Program-made: the position numbers and the translations under genes
Notes under the pieces: model-generated
What the model was told of the DNA's origin: nothing
Database searches by the model: none
The model's input: only the letters and a program-made list of their open reading frames with translations
Part shown: in pieces, positions 30,475 to 41,583 of the stretch
Numbering within the stretch: position 1 is the stretch's first letter
Layout: each line of letters starts with the position of its first letter
NCBI GenBank assembly: GCA_015486505.1
Contig: WFRP01000125.1
Span: forward strand, 1 to 41,583
Origin: Pseudomonadota bacterium
GTDB lineage: Bacteria; Desulfobacterota; Anaeroferrophillalia; Anaeroferrophillales; Tharpellaceae
Reading direction: 5' to 3'
DNA length: 41,583 nucleotides

Positions 30475-31539
30475 ATGTTATTCAGAAGAGACAAAACCCT
30501 GCTGGGCTTAAACATCGGCTCCGGCTACATTAAAATTGTTGAGCTCAAAGATTCCGGTTCAGTTCACACACTGAGTAGTTTCGGCTTGGCGGCCCTGCCT
30601 CCCGACGCGATTGTTGACGGAACAATCATGGACGCTTCCGCCATCGTCAATGCGATCATCAACCTTGCCGCCAATCTTAAGGTTAAAAAGAAACGGATCA
30701 GCACGTCAATCTCCGGCCACTCGGTTATCATAAAGAAAATAACCCTCCCGCTGATGGATGAAAACACCATCGAAGAAACGATCCACCAGGAAGCCACCCA
30801 GCATATTCCTTACGACATAAGCGATGTCAATCTTGACTTCCAGATTTTAGGCCCGAATGCGGACAATTCCGACAATATGGATATAATTCTGGTCGCCGTC
30901 AAAAAAGACACGATCAATGACTATCTGACCCTGGTTGAAATGGCCGGTTTTACCCCGGTAGTGGTTGATGTCGACACTTTTGCCCTCGAAAACACCTTTG
31001 AACATAACTATGAAGATAATGGAAAAAAAATAGTTGCCTTAATTGATATCGGGGCAAACTTGACCTGTATCAACATACTGGATGACGGCGTAACCTGTTT
31101 TTCGCGTAATATCACCTCCGGCAGCCGCGTTATCACCGAACAACTGCAGAAACAGTTCTCCTTAAGTTACGAGCAGGCCGAACTCCTCAAAATGGGCAGC
31201 CCGGAAAATTTTGCCGACGATATCACGGTTGCAATTTCAGCCATTAAAGAGGCGGCCTTCCCGCTAATCAACGAAATCATCAAAGCCATTGATTTTTTTC
31301 ACACTTCGGCGGTCGCGGATGGCCGCATTGAAAAAATCGTCTTAAGCGGGGGCGGCGCCAAAACCTTTAACATCATTAAAGACATTAAGAACAAATCCGG
31401 GATTGAGACTGAACTGGTCGATCCATTTCGCAATATCATGGTTCCGGAAAAATATTTTGATCTGGAATACATTCGTGAAATCGGCCCAATTGCCGCGGTC
31501 GCCACGGGCCTGGCCCTGCGCAAGGATGAGGTCAGCTGA
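30475..31539 (+). CDS. pilM: Type IV pilus assembly protein PilM
   Basis: PilM is an actin-like cytoplasmic ATP-binding protein that recruits PilN to the inner-membrane alignment complex. The 354-residue protein begins LFRRDKTLLGLNIGSGYIK, the first phosphate loop. Others are IVALIDIGANLTCINI (phosphate 2) and IVLSGGGAKTFNI (adenosine). GGGAG lies about 12 bases upstream. TGATG at its end overlaps the pilN start by one base. It is first in pilMNOPQ, and R10 lies before it. Confidence 0.95.
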   Translation: MLFRRDKTLLGLNIGSGYIKIVELKDSGSVHTLSSFGLAALPPDAIVDGTIMDASAIVNAIINLAANLKVKKKRISTSISGHSVIIKKITLPLMDENTIEETIHQEATQHIPYDISDVNLDFQILGPNADNSDNMDIILVAVKKDTINDYLTLVEMAGFTPVVVDVDTFALENTFEHNYEDNGKKIVALIDIGANLTCINILDDGVTCFSRNITSGSRVITEQLQKQFSLSYEQAELLKMGSPENFADDITVAISAIKEAAFPLINEIIKAIDFFHTSAVADGRIEKIVLSGGGAKTFNIIKDIKNKSGIETELVDPFRNIMVPEKYFDLEYIREIGPIAAVATGLALRKDEVS

Positions 31540-32153
31540 TGATCCATATAAACCTTCTGCCGGTACGAGCTGAACGTCGTAAAGAGTTCATCCGTAAACA
31601 ACTTTCAATTGCCGCGCTCACAATTTTCTTTGCCATTGCGGTTATGGGCCTCCTTTTTTTCCGGATTCAGGGACAATTAAATAAAACTAAAAGCTCTCTG
31701 GCAAGAACCAACAAAAAAATAAAGCAGCTGGACCCGGTCATCAAAAAGATTGACGCTTTCAAAAAAGAAAAAGCCGAGATCAGCAAAAAAATATCAGTTA
31801 TAATTGATCTTGACCGCTATCGCCTGGCCCCGGTAGTCGTGCTTTACGATCTCAACCGGCAGCGGCCGGAGAAACTCTGGTACACCGACATCAAGGAAAA
31901 CAACCGGCACCTGACCGTAAGCGGGGTCGCAATTGACAATGAAACCATCGTCAAGTTCCTGAACAACCTGAAAAAATCAATCCCTCTGCACAATTCCGAC
32001 CTGACTCTGCTGCGCTCTCAGAATATCCAGAAGCTGGATCTTAAAAAATTCACTATCGACTGTCCGCTGGATCTTGACGCCTTACCGGAAATGCTGGAAA
32101 AATCAGCTGCAACTCCGCCGGTTATTGCTGCAGAGGAGGAACAAAATGGCTGA
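31539..32153 (+). CDS. pilN: Type IV pilus assembly protein PilN
   Basis: PilN is an inner-membrane protein that binds PilM through its short cytoplasmic N-terminus, visible here as the conserved MIHINLLPVRAERRKE. One membrane segment (about 25-45) is followed by a coiled coil and a ferredoxin-like periplasmic domain (KLWYTDIKENNRHLTVSGVA). The product is 204 residues. Its last 8 bases overlap pilO, so translation is coupled. Confidence 0.95.
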   Translation: MIHINLLPVRAERRKEFIRKQLSIAALTIFFAIAVMGLLFFRIQGQLNKTKSSLARTNKKIKQLDPVIKKIDAFKKEKAEISKKISVIIDLDRYRLAPVVVLYDLNRQRPEKLWYTDIKENNRHLTVSGVAIDNETIVKFLNNLKKSIPLHNSDLTLLRSQNIQKLDLKKFTIDCPLDLDALPEMLEKSAATPPVIAAEEEQNG

Positions 32154-32754
32154 TTTCAGCTTTGATTTTCTCCATAACACTCCGGCCCCCAAACGCGCTT
32201 TAATGTTGTTGGGGATAGTGGCTCTTCTGGCCGGCGGTTTCACCTACTTTATCTATATGCCCAAGCTGAAAACCCTGCAGAGAACCGAACGTAAGCTTAA
32301 AAAGGCTCGGGTAACGCTGCATCAGACGCAGCAGGTTGCAAGTCAGCTCCCCAAATTAGAAGCGGAAATTGCCAGGCTTAATATTGCCTTCAAAAAAGCT
32401 CTGAAGAAATTACCGGACAGTAAAGAAATCCCGGCCCTCCTCCTGAAAATAACTAAACTGGGCAAAGAAGCAAAACTTTCATTCAACCTGTTTCAACCGT
32501 TGGGCAACCGCAACCGGGATTTCTATGCCGAGGTTCCGATTGATATTGAAGTTCAGGGCGGTTACCATGCTATCGGCCGGTTTTTCAGCCAGATCTGCGC
32601 GATGCCGAGAATTGTAAACGTTTACAATTATTCCCTGGGTGATTACAAGCTGACGGCCGACGGCGACCCTCAGCTTAAAGCCAGGTTTCAGGCGGTCACC
32701 TATACATTTATCGATAAACCCGAACCCAAACTCAAAAAGGGTAAGAAGAAATAA
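32146..32754 (+). CDS. pilO: Type IV pilus assembly protein PilO
   Basis: PilO pairs with PilN in the periplasmic alignment complex. The start is ATG 32146 (MADFSFDFLHNTP), with GAGGAGGAACAAA upstream; the longer frame from 32074 reads pilN in another frame and is rejected. The 202-residue protein has one membrane segment (about 19-38), a coiled coil (about 42-95) and a PilO domain (KITKLGKEAKLSFNLFQPLG, VQGGYHAIGRFFSQI). Its stop overlaps the pilP ATG by one base. Confidence 0.94.
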   Translation: MADFSFDFLHNTPAPKRALMLLGIVALLAGGFTYFIYMPKLKTLQRTERKLKKARVTLHQTQQVASQLPKLEAEIARLNIAFKKALKKLPDSKEIPALLLKITKLGKEAKLSFNLFQPLGNRNRDFYAEVPIDIEVQGGYHAIGRFFSQICAMPRIVNVYNYSLGDYKLTADGDPQLKARFQAVTYTFIDKPEPKLKKGKKK

Positions 32755-33320
32755 TGGCTAGACTTTTTACCGGATTACGCTTCAGCTGCGCCCTGTTGTG
32801 CGTCTGCCTGATGCTGGTTACCCTTGACTCTCCGGCTTTTGCCGGCAAGAAGAGTAAACCGGATAATGTTACTGAACCATTAACCGCGGAAAAACTCAAA
32901 ATTCTTGATAATAAAAAAATTATATTTTCATATAAATCATTGGGGCGCAAGGATCCTTTCCGTCCTTTCATCGACTTCTCTCAGGTTGAAAGACCAATCC
33001 CAACCGATACCAGCCGCCCCCTGACCCCGTTGGAGAAGTACGCCCTGAATCAGTATCGGCTGGTCGGTATAATTCTTGCCGGAGATATGAACAATTACGC
33101 TCTGGTTGAAGATCCGGAAAATGTCGGTTATACCGTAAAGGTTGGGGATATGATCGGCAACATGAGCGGCCAGGTAAAAGAGATAAAATTTAATGAGCTC
33201 GTAATTGAAGAACCCTACCTTGATATATTCGACAGGGAGCAGATCCGTACCATATCCATCCGGCTTCGGGATCTTGAAGAAGAAAGTTATCTCCAACTGG
33301 AAAATGAAAATAGTGAGTAA
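32754..33320 (+). CDS. pilP: Type IV pilus assembly protein PilP
   Basis: PilP links the PilNO complex to the secretin PilQ. The 188-residue protein has a signal peptide ending in DSPAFA, and the PilP core is seen in GRKDPFRPFIDF, LEKYALNQYRLVGIILAG and ALVEDPENVGYTVKVGDMIG. PilP is usually a lipoprotein, but I see no convincing lipobox: the cysteines at 12, 16 and 18 lie inside the hydrophobic stretch. It may be released into the periplasm instead. It overlaps pilO by one base. Confidence 0.9.
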   Translation: MARLFTGLRFSCALLCVCLMLVTLDSPAFAGKKSKPDNVTEPLTAEKLKILDNKKIIFSYKSLGRKDPFRPFIDFSQVERPIPTDTSRPLTPLEKYALNQYRLVGIILAGDMNNYALVEDPENVGYTVKVGDMIGNMSGQVKEIKFNELVIEEPYLDIFDREQIRTISIRLRDLEEESYLQLENENSE

Positions 33321-33324
33321 AACC

Positions 33325-35094
33325 ATGATTTATACTATCCGACGAAAATTTTCGCTGGCATACTTAATCCCGGCGTTGATGTTGCTCAGTCCAGGATTTG
33401 TCAATTTCACGAATGCCGCGCCGGAATCCCCGAAATTCCCGGTATCTAACAATACAATAAGCTTTACGGCTGAACCGACAGACCACACGGTACAGTTACG
33501 TTTTGTAACAACCTCCGACAAAAAAATAAACTACAAACTTTTCACCCTTGATGCCCCGCCGCGACTGGTCATCGACTTTCCGCAAGCCACCTATATTAAA
33601 AATAATATTAATGAAGCATTGAAACATTGTGGTTTCAGCCGACTTCGGGTTTCCAGTGATATCGAAAAGGTTCGCTTTGTCCTGGATACCGAATATACCA
33701 CCCTGCCGCCCTTCACCCAGTCAGCCCGGAATCAAAAATTACTGCTGACTTTGCAACAAGCGGCTCCGGGAAGCGTCAAAACCATTGCTACCCCAGCTAA
33801 AGCCGAGAAAACTGTCGCAAAACCGGCTTTCAAGCCTGGAAACAACCCGATAAGTATCGATTTCAAGGATACTGACATTCAGAATGTCTTTCGCTTTTTG
33901 GCTGAAATCAACCACCTCAATGTGGTAATGAGTGATGATGTCTCCGGCACGGTTACCTTGCGCTTGAAAGAAGTGCCCTGGAAACAGGTGTTGAGCATAG
34001 TTTTAAAAACTCATCAGCTCGGTATGGAACGTACCGGCAATGTCGTTCGCATTGCCCCGCTCAGCGTCTTCGCCAGTGAACAGCAGGCCCTCGATGAAAA
34101 GCGTCGCGCTGAAGCTGAAAGCAAAAAAACCGATGAAGAGATCCAGGACACCGTCTTAAAGATACTTAAAGTTAATTTTGCCAACATTGATGAAGTTGCC
34201 GACAAGATTGAAAATACCATTTTGAGTGACCGCGGCACGGTCGAAACCGACCCGCGTACCAATTCTTTAATCATAACCGACATACCGGATCGCATCGCTC
34301 AGGCGGAATCCCTGTTAAGGAAACTTGACGAACCGGTCAAACAGGTGATGATTGAGGCCAAGATCGTCAAGATCGAGCGTAAATCCGTGCATGAACTGGG
34401 TGTTCAATGGGGCGGGGCCTGGGGCAAGAGCAGTAATGATCGTTACTACGGCATTAATGGTAATGATTCTATGGGTGGAACCGGTTTACCGCCGGTAACC
34501 GACGGCGGTACGGTCCCGGCAGTTCCGAGTTCTTATGCCGTCAATCTGCCGACAACCGCGGTTACCAGCGGTATCGGCCTGATTTTCGGCAAACTTGATA
34601 AATACAACCTTAACCTGAAATTGTCGGCCATGCAGGGACAGGGGCTTGCGAATATCCTCTCATCCCCGAAAGTTCTCGCCTTAAATCAGCACCCGGCCCG
34701 AATCGGCCAGGGGCAGGAGATCCCCTACCAGACGACTTCCCAGGATGGCACCACCACGGAATTTAAAAAGGCTGAACTCAGCCTGGAAGTAACCCCGACA
34801 ATAACCAATAACGGCATGGTCTCGATGGAGGTGATCGTCAGCAAGGATTCCAAAGGTGAAAATACAACCGACGGTCCCGCCATCAATACGCAGACAATTA
34901 CAACTTCTTTACTCCTCAAAGACGGGGAAACCGCGGTTGTCGGCGGGATTATCGAAAGCAACAAAACCAATGCCAATCAGAATGTGCCGGTTCTCGGAAA
35001 GATTCCGATGTTAGGCTGGCTTTTCCGGCATGACTACAAAGATTCCGACCGCAGCGAGCTGATGATTTTCATCACGCCGAGAATCATCCGGTAG
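33325..35094 (+). CDS. pilQ: Type IV pilus secretin PilQ
   Basis: PilQ forms the outer-membrane pore of the type IV pilus. From ATG 33325 the protein is 589 residues: signal peptide (about 1-31), one AMIN domain (about 47-125), STN/N0 (starting SIDFKDTDIQNVFRFL), an N1 domain (DEVADKIENTILSDRG) and the secretin core (about 330-589) with VPVLGKIPMLGWLFRHD near the C-terminus. ATG 33304, overlapping pilP, is an alternative start adding seven residues. An upstream frame to 33205 reads pilP and is rejected. One AMIN domain is fewer than in some relatives. Confidence 0.95.
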   Translation: MIYTIRRKFSLAYLIPALMLLSPGFVNFTNAAPESPKFPVSNNTISFTAEPTDHTVQLRFVTTSDKKINYKLFTLDAPPRLVIDFPQATYIKNNINEALKHCGFSRLRVSSDIEKVRFVLDTEYTTLPPFTQSARNQKLLLTLQQAAPGSVKTIATPAKAEKTVAKPAFKPGNNPISIDFKDTDIQNVFRFLAEINHLNVVMSDDVSGTVTLRLKEVPWKQVLSIVLKTHQLGMERTGNVVRIAPLSVFASEQQALDEKRRAEAESKKTDEEIQDTVLKILKVNFANIDEVADKIENTILSDRGTVETDPRTNSLIITDIPDRIAQAESLLRKLDEPVKQVMIEAKIVKIERKSVHELGVQWGGAWGKSSNDRYYGINGNDSMGGTGLPPVTDGGTVPAVPSSYAVNLPTTAVTSGIGLIFGKLDKYNLNLKLSAMQGQGLANILSSPKVLALNQHPARIGQGQEIPYQTTSQDGTTTEFKKAELSLEVTPTITNNGMVSMEVIVSKDSKGENTTDGPAINTQTITTSLLLKDGETAVVGGIIESNKTNANQNVPVLGKIPMLGWLFRHDYKDSDRSELMIFITPRIIR

Positions 35095-35251: not shown

Positions 35252-36499
35252 TCACAAATAGTTAACCGGCAATTGGATAACCTTATCCGTCAACAGCTCA
35301 ACCCGACGACCCCGATTAACCAGGATTCCTAAATTTGCGCCCGTATCACTAATGAAATTTTTCAACCCTCGTAAATCCCGTCTCCGATTTATGGTTGAAC
35401 TCAGTTTTATTTCAACTGGAATCAGGCCGTTTACCCCATCAATAACCAAGTCAACCTCGGATTTATCGATCGTTCGGTAGTATGTATACTCCAAGCCGGT
35501 CGCCATGGTTGACTGCAAACCTCTTATAATCTCTTCAATAACAAAAGCTTCGAAAGAAAACCCGGCGACCGGGTGGATAAGCAAAGAATCAAGATCCCTG
35601 ATTTTGAGAAAACTATGCAGTAATCCCTGATCTCGAAAAAATCCTTTCTTTGCCTTTTGGATTTTTTTTAATTTATTTTTGCTGAATGGCAGTAAATTTC
35701 GCCAGATAAAAGTCTGGTGAATAATATCCAAGTAGTCTTTGACCGTGGTCACACTCACTTCTAGTGCCCGGGCAATCTCACTCATATTTAATTGATGGCC
35801 GGAAAACTGAGCCAACAGAGTCATAAACCTTCTAAAACTATGCATATTCAGTCGCGGAAACAACCCCCTGATATCCCGACTGATATAATCTTTAATATAG
35901 TTCTCCTGCCATTGCTCATAAAAACCGGGATGCCGCTCACCCACAATCAAGGGCTCAGGAAAACCGCCCTTAAACCAGACATTCATACTTTCGACCAGAC
36001 TTATTTTGCTCGTAAGAGATAAGAAATCTTTATTATCACTATCAGGGCCATTTGCAATTAACAAGTGATAGATATCCGGAATTCTCTTCTCGTAGTATTC
36101 GCACTGTTTAAATGGCCACATTTCTACAGTAACTATGCGTCCGGCCAGACTTTCACTTATTCCTTTAGCAATTTCCGGAGAGCTTGAACCTGTTAGAATA
36201 AATCGGCCTTTTTTCTGGCGATCCTGATCTATAACACCGCGCAAAATCTGAAAGAGTTCAGGATACTGCTGCGCTTCATCAATAATAACTCCAGCACTAT
36301 TGAGAGCAAAAAATGCCACCGGATCACTACTTATCAGTTGATAGTCATCCGGGCTTTCAAGATCATAATATCGCCATTCCGGCCGCATTTGCCGCACCAA
36401 AGTCGATTTTCCACATTGCCGGGGTCCGACAACCGCCACCACCGGAAACATCTCCAGTAGATGGTTGATTTTACCCTCTATAATTCGCGCTTTACCCAT
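35252..36499 (-). CDS. AAA ATPase of the AAA_14/DUF4143 family
   Basis: This 415-residue protein has Walker A GPRQCGKST (residues 25-33) and Walker B VIIDEAQ (Asp74, Glu75), followed by ILTGSSSPEIAKG (sensor 1). The C-terminal DUF4143 half includes a winged-helix-like stretch (MSEIARALEVSVTTVKDYL) and a nuclease-like motif EVDLVIDG...PVEIK near residues 350-370. Family members are widespread, patchy accessory genes of unknown role. There is no ribosome-binding site before ATG 36499, and the promoter lies only about 9 bases upstream. It is flanked by an inverted-repeat element and a repeat-poor gap, which suggests recent acquisition. Confidence 0.85.
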   Translation of the reverse strand: MGKARIIEGKINHLLEMFPVVAVVGPRQCGKSTLVRQMRPEWRYYDLESPDDYQLISSDPVAFFALNSAGVIIDEAQQYPELFQILRGVIDQDRQKKGRFILTGSSSPEIAKGISESLAGRIVTVEMWPFKQCEYYEKRIPDIYHLLIANGPDSDNKDFLSLTSKISLVESMNVWFKGGFPEPLIVGERHPGFYEQWQENYIKDYISRDIRGLFPRLNMHSFRRFMTLLAQFSGHQLNMSEIARALEVSVTTVKDYLDIIHQTFIWRNLLPFSKNKLKKIQKAKKGFFRDQGLLHSFLKIRDLDSLLIHPVAGFSFEAFVIEEIIRGLQSTMATGLEYTYYRTIDKSEVDLVIDGVNGLIPVEIKLSSTINRRRDLRGLKNFISDTGANLGILVNRGRRVELLTDKVIQLPVNYL

Positions 36500-36703: not shown

Positions 36704-36743
36704 AAAGGGTGTTGGTGTTCCGCTTGGGACACCAACACCCTTT
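36704..36743 (-). terminator. Intrinsic terminator after the large secreted protein gene
   Basis: A perfect 15-bp stem (AAAGGGTGTTGGTGT with its complement) has a 10-base loop and, on the minus strand, a T-run at its far side. It lies 35 bases past the stop at 36778. Confidence 0.9.
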
Positions 36744-36777: not shown

Positions 36778-39700
36778 CTACTGCAATCTGACTCCACTCA
36801 CCGGCGCATCTTCAAGAACCACACCGTCAACGACACAGGTGTAGGTCCCGGAAAATTTATCCGCAGTCAGAGACGTAATATTGTAGGTATAGTTGTAAAT
36901 TCTACCGTTATAAGGCAGACTGAAAGTCATAACATAACCTGAAGCATCAGTCCCATAAAACAATTGCACATTATATCCCGGCCAGACAGCACTGATGTTG
37001 CCATTGCCGTCTTCAGTCACCACCAGGTTGGTCGGATGAACTCGTTTGACGCCATAGTACTCCGAGGTTACCTGCCAGGTTCCGGCAAGTGAATTTATAT
37101 GCAATGACTGCATCTCCAACAGGCCTTTATTGAAATCAAAGGGCCCGCTGGTGGAGGCATCTTTGACATAGGTCCCCATATAGAGCGTTCCGGGCATATA
37201 TTTGAAATCGGAAGCATTATTAAAAGGCTCATTATCCGGCGGAGTAATAATAATGTCGCCAAAGTGAAAATCATCATCGCCGCTATCGACTTTCTCACCC
37301 TGACACTGAGTACAGCCCAGCTCCCGGAAATCAACCTGACTTAAATCAAGCTTCATACCCGGGGCGGCTCCGGCCTTGTACCAGAGATTCTGCCAGCCAA
37401 ATACAGCGTTGTAAGGAAACAACTTCAAGCTCCCATCGGGCGTAAGAGCGTAGATATCTCCCTGAGAAAGCGGATCGTGGGAAAAGAGGACAAAAAGCTG
37501 CCCGGAGGCCTCGGTGGAGGCACTGACCGAAACTTTGTAGTCTATATCCGCAGTATATGTATCATAATCCGCCACGACGAAATCGGCATTGGCGACTCCT
37601 TTGAGCAGAACAACATACTGAGTCCCCCAATCGATTTCCTCGGGCGGAATATTTGCCAGATCCTGCACCGGCCCGACATTAAAATATAATCCATCTTCAA
37701 GGTAACCCGAAGAGACTGGCTTAAAGGTTACCTGACAGGTCAGGGAGCCACCTGATGCCCTGATAATATCGCCGGCCGCAATGCCACTGACACTGTAGGA
37801 GTCGGTTCCGGTAACTGCGCCTTTAACCTGTATATCCTCAACCGAACTATTGGTGATAGTCACATTTAAAACAGTATTACTGCCAACGTCACTATTGGGA
37901 AATTCAAGGGTTGTCGGTGACACGTCAATATCGACACCGGAACCCTGCATAATAATTTCCTGAGGCGGCAGATCGTGATTGAACAGAAGCCTGAGAATCC
38001 CGCTGAAATCACCCACAGACACCGGGGTAAATGTCACAATTCCAACCGTACTCATCCCGGCCGCCAGTGTACCATTGCTGATACCTTCAACCGCGAAAAG
38101 TGCGCCCGGAAGATCAACCCCGACGATTTCCAAATCAACATTGCCGGTGTTGGTCACAACCAGGGTTTCAGTTTTAGTTGTCCCCAAAGCTGTATTGCCA
38201 AAGGCAAAGGATTGCGGCGCCACGCTGATCGCGGGAGCCGAGATATCAACCCCGGAGCCCTTCAGTTTAATATCAGAGGTCACAACTCCCTGGTCATAAA
38301 GAACCCGCAGGGTTATATCATAATCCTGCTCCAGTAACGGCGTAAACGTAACCAACGCATCCAGCACTCCGTATGCCGGAATACTGCCAGGAATGCCACT
38401 GACAGCAAAGACCCCTTCCGGAAGATCTACGGCGCTAATATTAACGGCAACAGCCCCATTATTAATAAAACGCAGATTAGCACTCTTGCTGTTGCCAATA
38501 TTACAGCGACCCAAGTTTATTTCATCACTAACTTCAATGACATTATCAACATTATAAACACCAACTCCGCTTAATTTAATTTCCGAAGACGGCACACCAT
38601 GCTCGTACAAAACCCGTAAAGTGCTGTTATAAACCCGCGGCAATTTCGGTGAAAAAGTTGCTGTAACATTCAAAGTACCATACACCGGAATTGTCGCCGG
38701 CAGGCCGCTGACCTTAAATCCGGCACCATCCGGTAAATCAATTGCGGTAATCACCAGATCAACATTGCCGGTATTGGTAAAGACAAGATTGGCACTCTTA
38801 TCTTCTCCAACTGCGACATTGCCAAAACTGATATCACCGGGCGGAGTCACGGAAGCGATAATATTCCCGCGGCCGACCCCGCTCAAATCTATCTGTAACG
38901 GCGCCACCCCGTCAGCAAAAAATACCATAAGGGTACCAGAATATGACCGCGGCTGCGTCGGTGTAAAGGTAACCAAAGCTACGAAACTGGTTCCGGCTTT
39001 AATAGTACCGGACATACCCGTAACCGCAAAACCTTCCGGCACAATCGTTTCCCCAAACGTAACATCGTCTTTACCGGTATTGGTAAATGTGAGGATTTCA
39101 GTTGCAGACTCGCCAATATTTACGTTTCCATAAGGGTAAGACTTGGGAGATACGTCAACTTTCACATCAGGAGTAACCACCGGCGGCGTGGGCACAGCAG
39201 CTCCCTGGAGATTAACCGCAAGATTGGTAGCATCGGAATAAATGGTGAAACTGCCGAGAAAGGTACCGGTCGCTTCCGGTTTAAATTCGATATAAAGGTT
39301 GTAAGTCGCTCCCGGCACCAGATCAATCGTTTTACCATCGGCCTCAGAGCCTAATTCCCCAGGCAATCCGACATAAACATAGGGTGACTCCAGCGGCGTC
39401 ACATAATCAATTTTTATCGTACTGTCACCGGTATTTTTCATTTTGACCGTTAACGTGGACACTTCCCCCGTCTGCAACGAAGCAAAATCAAGCAACGGCG
39501 GAACCAACGGCGTATTATCATCATGGAGAAGGATAAGTTGGGGTTGCCCCATAGTCAAACGCTGACCATAAATATCAGAATTGGTCGTATTGAGATTACG
39601 GGCATCTTTCCAGACGGACAAAAACTGATGACTACCTGAATTGTAAGCCGTAACCGGATTATACTGGTTTGCCGGTTCGGTGCAAACCGCGTAATTATCC

Positions 39701-41268
39701 CCGCGCAGACTCCCTTCGGAGTCAACATACTGACCATAAATATCCAGATTTTCCAGGGAAACCTGAGAGTTTCGGCCATCCTGCCAGGTTACAAAAAAGC
39801 GCTGGTTAGTGGGATCAATCGCAACTTGAGGTCGGGTCTGATTGGAGTTAAGAATATTCTCATCCTGAGTTCCATCATTGTTGGTATCCTGAAAACTTAT
39901 TGCTATATTACCAGCATAAAGTCCACCTCCGGAATAGAGCAGTTGCCCAAAAATCTTGCTGTGGATTCCATCACCGGATCCATCATCATGTTTATCACGG
40001 TCTTCCCAGGCGACGAGAAACTTGCGATGGGTTGAGTCGTAACCGGCCGCGGGATAATAGCTTGACGCCCCTGAACTATAATCAATCCATTGGGTATAGA
40101 CCACGGATTTATCGATATTTTTATCAAAAATAGCGTAAACATGAACATTCTTATCCGTATCTTCAACTTCACTCAACTCTTCATCTGACACAACGTTATC
40201 TACCAGATTACTGGTCAGAAGTTTTTCACCTTTAACCCCCTCCCAGACAATTAGGGTCTCGGGTGAACTATCGTCGCAGACAACTTTAACATTATTTATA
40301 TCAGTAAAATACTCATATGTGTAGGTAGCGGTGCCCCTGGTTGCGTCTGTCTCATCCAAAGTCCAAGAAATAAGGCGCACTGTACGCACAGCCGGATTTT
40401 TAACACTATTACGAAGTATATCAACACTTTGAATAGCTCCAGTACCTGCCGCCACAACGCCATACGCGACAAAGTTGCTATCCCCAAAAAAGTACTCGCC
40501 TGTAGTCCACTCATTTGTAGTTTTAGGTTTCACCTTCTCCTTTACCCTCTGCAGTTCATCCCGGCTTTCAACCCAGGTCACCCAGAACTGATCGCGGACA
40601 TTGTCAAAGGCAATCGCCGGAAGTTTTCTTGATCTCAGATTATCGCTATCAATCGAAGTATAGGTGAAAGGATAGCCTAAGGGCGCGGCATTGGTCGGAT
40701 CAGATTGAAACGTAAAACCGGAAGAGCAATCCCCGGCTAGCTTAGAGACATCGAGAATGTCATAGTAGACATAGCCTTCTGCTGTAGCGCCTCGGGTATC
40801 CTGCCAGGCGATCATAATTTTGTCGGTTCCGGTAACTTGCGGATCAGCATCAGGTCGATTACGGTAGGCAAGCACCGGTACCGTCTGGTTGCCGGTTTGC
40901 GTTGAAATCGCAATTTCATCACCACAGTAACTGCCGTCACCATTGATAAATCGACCGTAGATATCAGCCCCTGTGGTACTCCAGTTACGCCAGTCTTCCC
41001 AGACGACAAACCATTTATTTTTATCCGGCAGGGCAATCACGCTCGGATTTTGCTGATCATCACCGAGCAGGGTCGCGGTATCCGGGGCAGTGGCGCCGTT
41101 GACAATTGAAATCGGGATATTCGGGCCTTCATTCGCTGCCTGTAAAGGGACCGCAAAACTCAAAACCATTGTCACCAACAACAAGAAAGTCAAAGCAAAA
41201 CAGCACATCGAACTATAGTTCTTACAGTTCTGCATTGATGCCTTAATCGTACCGGTTGACTCCATCAT
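36778..41268 (-). CDS. Large secreted protein: predicted beta-propeller plus six choice-of-anchor-D-like modules
   Basis: The 1496-residue product has a signal peptide (about 15-44, ending PLQAA). Residues about 50-570 contain seven repeats of a hydrophobic-W-x-x-x-R type motif (VVWEDWR, IAWQDTR, VTWVESR, IVWEGVK, VAWEDRD, VTWQDGR, SVWKDAR), often followed by DIYGQ; this suggests a seven-bladed propeller. Six Ig-like modules of about 100 residues follow (about 575-1220), each with a FGN-x-x-x-G start and a FTNTG-like core, resembling ASPM/SPD2/Hydin or choice-of-anchor-D domains. The C-terminus has a CTQC pair near 1310 and a roughly 100-residue beta-rich domain starting LAGTWQVTSEYYG. No sorting signal is visible. 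AAGGGGG lies three or six bases before two adjacent ATGs; the second (41265) has the better spacing. Function is unknown; adhesion or surface binding is a guess. Confidence 0.85.
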   Translation of the reverse strand: MMESTGTIKASMQNCKNYSSMCCFALTFLLLVTMVLSFAVPLQAANEGPNIPISIVNGATAPDTATLLGDDQQNPSVIALPDKNKWFVVWEDWRNWSTTGADIYGRFINGDGSYCGDEIAISTQTGNQTVPVLAYRNRPDADPQVTGTDKIMIAWQDTRGATAEGYVYYDILDVSKLAGDCSSGFTFQSDPTNAAPLGYPFTYTSIDSDNLRSRKLPAIAFDNVRDQFWVTWVESRDELQRVKEKVKPKTTNEWTTGEYFFGDSNFVAYGVVAAGTGAIQSVDILRNSVKNPAVRTVRLISWTLDETDATRGTATYTYEYFTDINNVKVVCDDSSPETLIVWEGVKGEKLLTSNLVDNVVSDEELSEVEDTDKNVHVYAIFDKNIDKSVVYTQWIDYSSGASSYYPAAGYDSTHRKFLVAWEDRDKHDDGSGDGIHSKIFGQLLYSGGGLYAGNIAISFQDTNNDGTQDENILNSNQTRPQVAIDPTNQRFFVTWQDGRNSQVSLENLDIYGQYVDSEGSLRGDNYAVCTEPANQYNPVTAYNSGSHQFLSVWKDARNLNTTNSDIYGQRLTMGQPQLILLHDDNTPLVPPLLDFASLQTGEVSTLTVKMKNTGDSTIKIDYVTPLESPYVYVGLPGELGSEADGKTIDLVPGATYNLYIEFKPEATGTFLGSFTIYSDATNLAVNLQGAAVPTPPVVTPDVKVDVSPKSYPYGNVNIGESATEILTFTNTGKDDVTFGETIVPEGFAVTGMSGTIKAGTSFVALVTFTPTQPRSYSGTLMVFFADGVAPLQIDLSGVGRGNIIASVTPPGDISFGNVAVGEDKSANLVFTNTGNVDLVITAIDLPDGAGFKVSGLPATIPVYGTLNVTATFSPKLPRVYNSTLRVLYEHGVPSSEIKLSGVGVYNVDNVIEVSDEINLGRCNIGNSKSANLRFINNGAVAVNISAVDLPEGVFAVSGIPGSIPAYGVLDALVTFTPLLEQDYDITLRVLYDQGVVTSDIKLKGSGVDISAPAISVAPQSFAFGNTALGTTKTETLVVTNTGNVDLEIVGVDLPGALFAVEGISNGTLAAGMSTVGIVTFTPVSVGDFSGILRLLFNHDLPPQEIIMQGSGVDIDVSPTTLEFPNSDVGSNTVLNVTITNSSVEDIQVKGAVTGTDSYSVSGIAAGDIIRASGGSLTCQVTFKPVSSGYLEDGLYFNVGPVQDLANIPPEEIDWGTQYVVLLKGVANADFVVADYDTYTADIDYKVSVSASTEASGQLFVLFSHDPLSQGDIYALTPDGSLKLFPYNAVFGWQNLWYKAGAAPGMKLDLSQVDFRELGCTQCQGEKVDSGDDDFHFGDIIITPPDNEPFNNASDFKYMPGTLYMGTYVKDASTSGPFDFNKGLLEMQSLHINSLAGTWQVTSEYYGVKRVHPTNLVVTEDGNGNISAVWPGYNVQLFYGTDASGYVMTFSLPYNGRIYNYTYNITSLTADKFSGTYTCVVDGVVLEDAPVSGVRLQ

Positions 41269-41380: not shown

Positions 41381-41406
41381 GAAAATCATTTATCTTATTT
41401 ATATTA

Positions 41407-41583
41407 GTAACTATTCAGCCACCCCCCCCACCTTCTGGAGGGGACGGGGGTGGTTTTTCGTAAGCGGTTGCGGAAACGATTTCGTTGTTTTTCCCAGCGA
41501 GCGGGAGCCCATCAGCATTGCAACTGTTTGAGCGTAAGCGAGTTTTGCAAGGCGGGCGCAGCGAGCGTAAGGAAAAACAGAAA
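41407..41583. mobile_element. T element, cut by the window end
   Basis: It begins GTAACTATTCAGCC and then matches the 246-bp copy at 11889-12134 in reverse orientation, including GCGGGCGCAGCGAGCGTAAG. The C8 run at 41422-41429 corresponds to the G12 run of the other copy. The far end lies outside the window. Confidence 0.8.

Follow-up and report, generated by a model that had tools for sequence, protein, structure and literature searches.

A propeller and Ig-module protein of a Tharpellaceae bacterium, genetically coupled to a secretin-locus lipoprotein, as a candidate modular surface binding protein

The window analyzed here, a 41,583-nucleotide stretch of DNA from a deep-sea bacterium of the Desulfobacterota family Tharpellaceae (assembly GCA_015486505.1, contig WFRP01000125.1), is one entire contig (C125) of a 351-contig metagenome-assembled genome (G000). 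It carries a gene for a 1496-residue protein that joins an N-terminal signal, a predicted beta-propeller, a row of immunoglobulin (Ig)-like modules and a distinct C-terminal domain (CTD). The CTD is genetically coupled to a lipoprotein, termed c1, and both c1 and the close relatives of the propeller are repeatedly linked to secretin genes. With about even confidence, we propose that the gene encodes a modular surface binding protein that is docked through its CTD onto c1 at the secretin of a type IV pilus or type II secretion system.

The pairing of CTD and c1 was surveyed in 395 genomes of the phylum, using a profile (A6) for the CTD and discarding one marginal CTD match and three marginal c1 matches. 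The CTD was found in 32 genomes and c1 in 57, with both present in 31 (Fisher p 3e-29, a value that ignores kinship and whose significance is overstated by the related genomes). The sole CTD genome lacking a c1 match, G011, carries the locus on a 3.3-kb contig. The CTD is distributed over ten families, and c1 is its neighbor in nine of them. In sister genomes of the window's own family the gene order is resB-ccsA-gapdh-pgk-tim-secG-c1 followed by the gene itself, convergent with pilQ-P-O-N-M. Elsewhere, parts of the protein occur as separate neighboring genes: c1, a propeller–Ig protein and the CTD are encoded consecutively in two genomes of one genus (G261 and G389, family f79). Family f71 has the order gspM-gspD-CTD-c1, all in the same direction with short gaps. 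Among genomes lacking the CTD, c1 directly adjoins pilQ or mshL at 11 of the 14 loci inspected; in genome G149, pilP and pilQ flank it.

The partner c1 is a protein of about 380 aa with a mean column identity of 78% across 11 relatives. Within a set of 20 diverse members, the lipobox cysteine is invariant and the family matches are mostly weak, comprising LpoB (11 members, best E 7e-5), CsgG (10 members, best E 8e-5) and FlgT_M (seven members); Gly-zipper models are also matched. Profile searches of c1 against the PDB returned nothing or chance matches. These weak but repeated matches suggest that c1 is an outer-membrane lipoprotein of the CsgG/LpoB/FlgT superfamily. It may also resemble the secretin-associated protein TsaP. 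A literature search on secretin, LpoB, CsgG and TsaP yielded no title devoted to such a lipoprotein. Undescribed LpoB/CsgG-like lipoproteins were also seen directly 3' of, or within, pilMNOPQ or mshL runs at eight loci from several families (L119, L120, L137, L138, L140, L143, L150 and L151).

Turning to the protein itself, the sequence reads as an N-terminal Sec-type signal with the cleavage site ...PLQA/AN and no lipobox. Together with the original prediction, made from the letters alone, a search of the sequence, Pfam and NCBIfam found no C-terminal anchor or sorting signal. The protein is predicted to lie outside the cell or on its surface. The propeller had been predicted from seven W-x-x-x-R repeats. 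The exact motif occurs five times (aa 90, 155, 232, 495 and 553), compared with a mean of 0.53 and a maximum of 4 in 2000 shuffles; seven tryptophan strands are reached once the degenerate sites W342-EGVK and W421-EDR are included. Structure prediction, the test set in advance for this claim, favored a propeller: an AlphaFold model made with nine relatives was all-beta (pTM 0.82, mean pLDDT 76), and Foldseek matched it to beta-propellers, including sialidases (E 2.5e-8) and the propeller enzyme CylK (TM 0.52). The region is thus predicted to form a seven-bladed toroid, the blade count being drawn from motifs, strand order and a model of moderate confidence; blades 3–5 are degenerate. A propeller profile gave no match among PDB sequences.

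The six Ig-like modules that had been proposed, of the choice-of-anchor-D or ASPM-SPD-2-Hydin (ASH) type, are borne out at residues 590–1231 by NF012200 (six stretches, E 6e-61, 203.7 bits against a cut-off of 45) and PF22544 (E 3e-45), and the predicted model of the last module matches ASH domains of CEP192 and HYDIN. Shorter relatives of 934–1088 aa retain the propeller, this last module and the CTD, having lost the other Ig modules. Compared across relatives, the CTD is the most constant part of the protein, because the relatives variously shed Ig modules or the propeller, or split the CTD into a separate gene.

The CTD (residues 1232–1496) comprises two parts, ctdA and ctdB, and agrees with the distinct beta-rich C-terminal domain of the original prediction. 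It has no match in curated Pfam, and a curated identity was sought in vain through sequence-profile searches of the PDB, which returned only the Ig part or chance matches. The ctdB alignment contains an invariant G-x-W and a C-terminal arginine, the two being visible in most members; a lipocalin or calycin barrel would carry such motifs at its first strand and near its end. Its predicted model is a ten-strand meander that looks like a calycin, with weak matches only to Lipocalin_4 and DUF1579 (best Lipocalin_4, E 0.04). Foldseek searches with the CTD model were swamped by Ig domains, and ctdB gave no structural match. CTD proteins in other lineages bear BACON domains. Two further variations were observed: an extra domain of about 90 aa lies beyond the CTD in G005 (L027) and G002 (L029), and CTD-type proteins beside c1 at L116, L121, L122 and L124 have, as their C-terminal part, a retropepsin-like aspartyl protease domain that contains DTGA (assigned by PF13975/PF13650 in the first three and by sequence in L124).

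Homologs of the propeller provide a separate link to secretins. The strongest matches outside the window's family fall into two sets, one beside c1 (G019 and G021 of family f2; G261 and G389 of f79) and the other after pilQ (G192, G045 and G169), in pilMNOPQ order and the same direction with one or two genes between. The Nitrospirae genome JdFR-81 has this arrangement too; it was itself part of alignment A3, but its identity of 44–54% comes from direct comparison. Of the weaker propeller matches in the searched genomes, none adjoins a secretin. Three pilMNOPQ-linked propeller–Ig proteins (L040:6329-10132, L153:8512-12444 and L154:5534-9940) end in a CFIATAAYGS box and a hydrophobic segment.

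Taken as a mechanism, the protein would be exported from the cell, with the seven-bladed propeller acting as a binding head and the ASH Ig modules as a stalk of adjustable length. The ctdA-ctdB unit would dock the protein onto c1, and c1 would associate with the secretin of a type IV pilus or type II secretion system. In this arrangement the c1–CTD pair could hold the propeller on display at, or close to, the mouth of the secretin; candidate ligands there include a surface, a glycan, the pilus or a substrate.

Several points weigh against this proposal. Within the window's own family, the gene and pilQ are convergent, and no transcript is shared with the pilus genes; co-transcription with the pil genes of the window is ruled out by this orientation. 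In family f38 c1 and the CTD are unlinked, and the propeller gene of f2 and f79 was not seen to have a secretin as a neighbor. To judge from three family members (G002, G013 and G015) that have no propeller and yet retain the locus, the Ig modules and the CTD, the propeller is dispensable for the core function. In several families c1 adjoins yajC/tgt or secG, which could instead indicate a part in general envelope biogenesis. Adjacency of genes does not demonstrate that their products touch, and genomes of one family do not count as independent observations.

The main rival to a secretin-docked binding protein is a general envelope role, in which c1 would act on peptidoglycan or outer-membrane assembly in the manner of LpoB, with the CTD protein as its periplasmic or surface partner and the pilus linkage incidental or ancestral. 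The LpoB matches of c1, which stand beside those to CsgG and FlgT_M, are consistent with such a role, as is the c1/CTD pair that in several CTD families follows tgt-yajC or secG, or occurs without a secretin. However, the frequent adjacency of c1 to pilQ or mshL where the CTD is missing, and the independent linkage of propeller relatives to pilQ, speak for the secretin, and we regard the envelope role as rather unlikely. It is highly improbable that the protein is a generic secreted repeat protein of the choice-of-anchor-D kind that lacks a dedicated partner: ASH Ig modules are indeed common among bacterial extracellular proteins, but the near-complete co-occurrence of CTD and c1, the constancy of the locus and the occurrence of the parts as separate genes all argue for a partner.

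Other alternatives concern the propeller. PilY1 is a propeller-bearing tip adhesin (see PMC7541494 and PMC13190605), and the window protein could similarly sit on the pilus tip and prime pilus assembly, since a seven-bladed propeller protein is tied to pilMNOPQ in several lineages. Against this, PF05567 is absent from the 20 families that match the protein at E<=0.1, and the neighbors are pilMNOPQ and c1 rather than minor pilins. Separate PilY1-like ORFs (open reading frames) are present in the same genome, on contig C247 (where PF05567 exceeds the cut-off only when combined with neighbors in frame), and in several sisters, four of them above the cut-off; they weaken the case for the protein as a PilY1 replacement, and we consider a tip adhesin improbable. 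That the protein is a freely secreted enzyme whose propeller resembles that of a sialidase or arabinanase is scarcely credible. Sialidases and other glycosidases do head the Foldseek list, but they would do so for any propeller because they are numerous in the PDB; the matches have identities of 5–12% and TM of at most 0.52, the strands carry W-x-D-x-R repeats, and the Pfam search found no glycosidase family.

A second, partial copy of the gene (copy A; the window gene is copy B) occurs in the same genome on contig C121 (L023:10212-11905), after c1 and cut by the contig end. Contigs C121 and C125 appear to flank a break in a single locus that carries copies A and B in tandem, because the searches found a single c1 and three secretins, only one of which was seen in a pilMNOPQ context; alternatively, the copies may be strain alleles. 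Protein identity between A and B over consecutive segments is 95, 61, 36, 54 and 100%, the middle three values covering the central blades. At the nucleotide level the copies are 92–98% identical upstream, 83–100% across the initial 155 codons or so, near 42–69% at codons 160–425 and 98–100% over the last 142 bases before the contig end. The center of copy A is nearer to G009 and G007 than to copy B, and its ends are nearer to copy B. This pattern fits recombination or gene conversion around the divergent central-blade segment. Across the genus, no other part of the propeller changes faster. In that segment copy A also has a Cys-rich insert with a repeated C-x-D-G-S-x-P, in common with G005. 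This mosaic suggests pressure to change on the binding face of the propeller. Tentatively, and with considerable doubt, we extend the proposal to an undescribed surface module of type IV pilus or type II secretin machines in Desulfobacterota-related bacteria, in which c1 and the CTD may carry interchangeable heads (propeller–Ig, BACON domains, or a retropepsin-like protease as an addition), the head of the window genome possibly being varied by exchange of a central-blade cassette between nearly identical constant ends.

The features of the locus are collected in Table 1. The ORF, which is read on the minus strand, has exactly the coordinates of the original prediction, and its frame, likewise set in advance as a test, is not broken in sister genomes, where full-length orthologs have 1539 and 1529 aa at 57–60% identity. 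The strong terminator attributed to the gene is present as a hairpin and T-run. The claims that the gene is alone and accessory fail: the contig runs out 315 bases upstream, sisters have c1 directly before the gene, and its site between the lipoprotein gene and pilMNOPQ is conserved throughout the family, as part of a recurring unit with c1. Of the flanks described as repeats and a mobile-type element, the repeats stand, at the upstream end; the supposed element encodes an AAA_14/DUF4143 ATPase, with no transposase or integrase, found at this site only in the window's genome among those compared. The conserved locus and this ATPase neighbor rule out an accessory gene beside a mobile element. 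The repeat has about 40 copies genome-wide at about 90–97% identity, another lying at L023:4447-4569. No Rfam RNA family matched around the gene. In the pil gene run, the secretin domain of pilQ spans 34627-35091, a PilM family match was obtained in a related operon, and PilN, PilO and PilP are named from gene order and between-locus similarity rather than curated family matches.

Table 1. Coordinates of the gene, its predicted parts and neighboring features in the window
Feature	Position	Strand	Basis or remark
Whole gene	36778..41268	-	1496 aa; ATG at 41268, stop at 36778; ORF and translation
Putative signal peptide, about aa 1-44	41137..41268	-	Hydrophobic stretch CCFALTFLLLVTMVLSFAVPLQA; cleavage near A44/A45, read from sequence
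Predicted beta-propeller, about aa 45-580	39529..41136	-	AlphaFold model, Foldseek, motif count
Variable central blades, about aa 159-426	39991..40794	-	Comparison of copies A and B
Five ASH-type Ig modules, about aa 590-1110	37939..39501	-	Fewer or absent in shorter relatives
Last Ig module, about aa 1111-1231	37576..37938	-	Alignment; retained even in shortest relatives
ctdA, about aa 1232-1385	37114..37575	-	Alignments; C1319-x-x-C1322 invariant within the order
ctdB, about aa 1386-1496	36781..37113	-	Calycin-like barrel (predicted); alignment, model
Intrinsic terminator hairpin	36704..36743	-	Palindrome then T-run on minus strand, just beyond the stop codon
AAA_14/DUF4143 ATPase gene	35252..36499	-	Between the gene and pilQ
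pilM-N-O-P-Q	30475..35094	+	Convergent with the gene; pilQ about 33205-35094; Secretin/STN/AMIN matches, synteny
Dispersed repeat copy, ~185 bp	41400..41583		Window contig stops inside the repeat

The proposal of Tharpella came from vent sediments at Auka (PMC9213671), and pili, adhesins and secretion go unmentioned in the one paper found to name Tharpella. The core common to type IV pili and type II secretion systems is well studied, but outside a few model bacteria little is known of the outer parts specific to each lineage. The pair described here, a secretin-locus lipoprotein and a multi-domain partner that lacks a curated family name and recurs across ten families, is a candidate for such a part, and the rule linking CTD to c1 predicts a checkable interaction.

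Like the PilY1/PilC tip adhesins (PF05567), the window protein is large, apparently exported, carries a predicted beta-propeller and is linked to type IV pilus loci; unlike them, it has no PF05567, is built on a W-x-D-x-R repeat, adds a new CTD and a stalk of ASH Ig modules, and lies outside a minor-pilin operon. The choice-of-anchor-D or ASPM-SPD-2-Hydin label (NF012200, PF15780, PF22544) applies to its six modules, above the curated cut-off, and covers the stalk only, the propeller and CTD falling outside it. Where that label leads one to expect a C-terminal surface anchor, none was found in Pfam or NCBIfam, and the CTD is predicted to end in a soluble calycin-like barrel. By its matches, which are mostly weak, the lipoprotein c1 may be related to the CsgG/LpoB/FlgT envelope lipoproteins, and it often lies at secretin genes; it differs in an extra Gly-rich insert. 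Last are the WxDxR-propeller proteins of families f26 and f54 and of JdFR-81, whose genes close pilMNOPQ runs and which, unlike the window protein, have neither ctdA-ctdB nor an adjoining c1; the f26/f54 members end in the CFIATAAYGS box and hydrophobic segment and JdFR-81 in another beta domain, and in all of them a propeller homologous to that of the window protein is followed by Ig-type modules.

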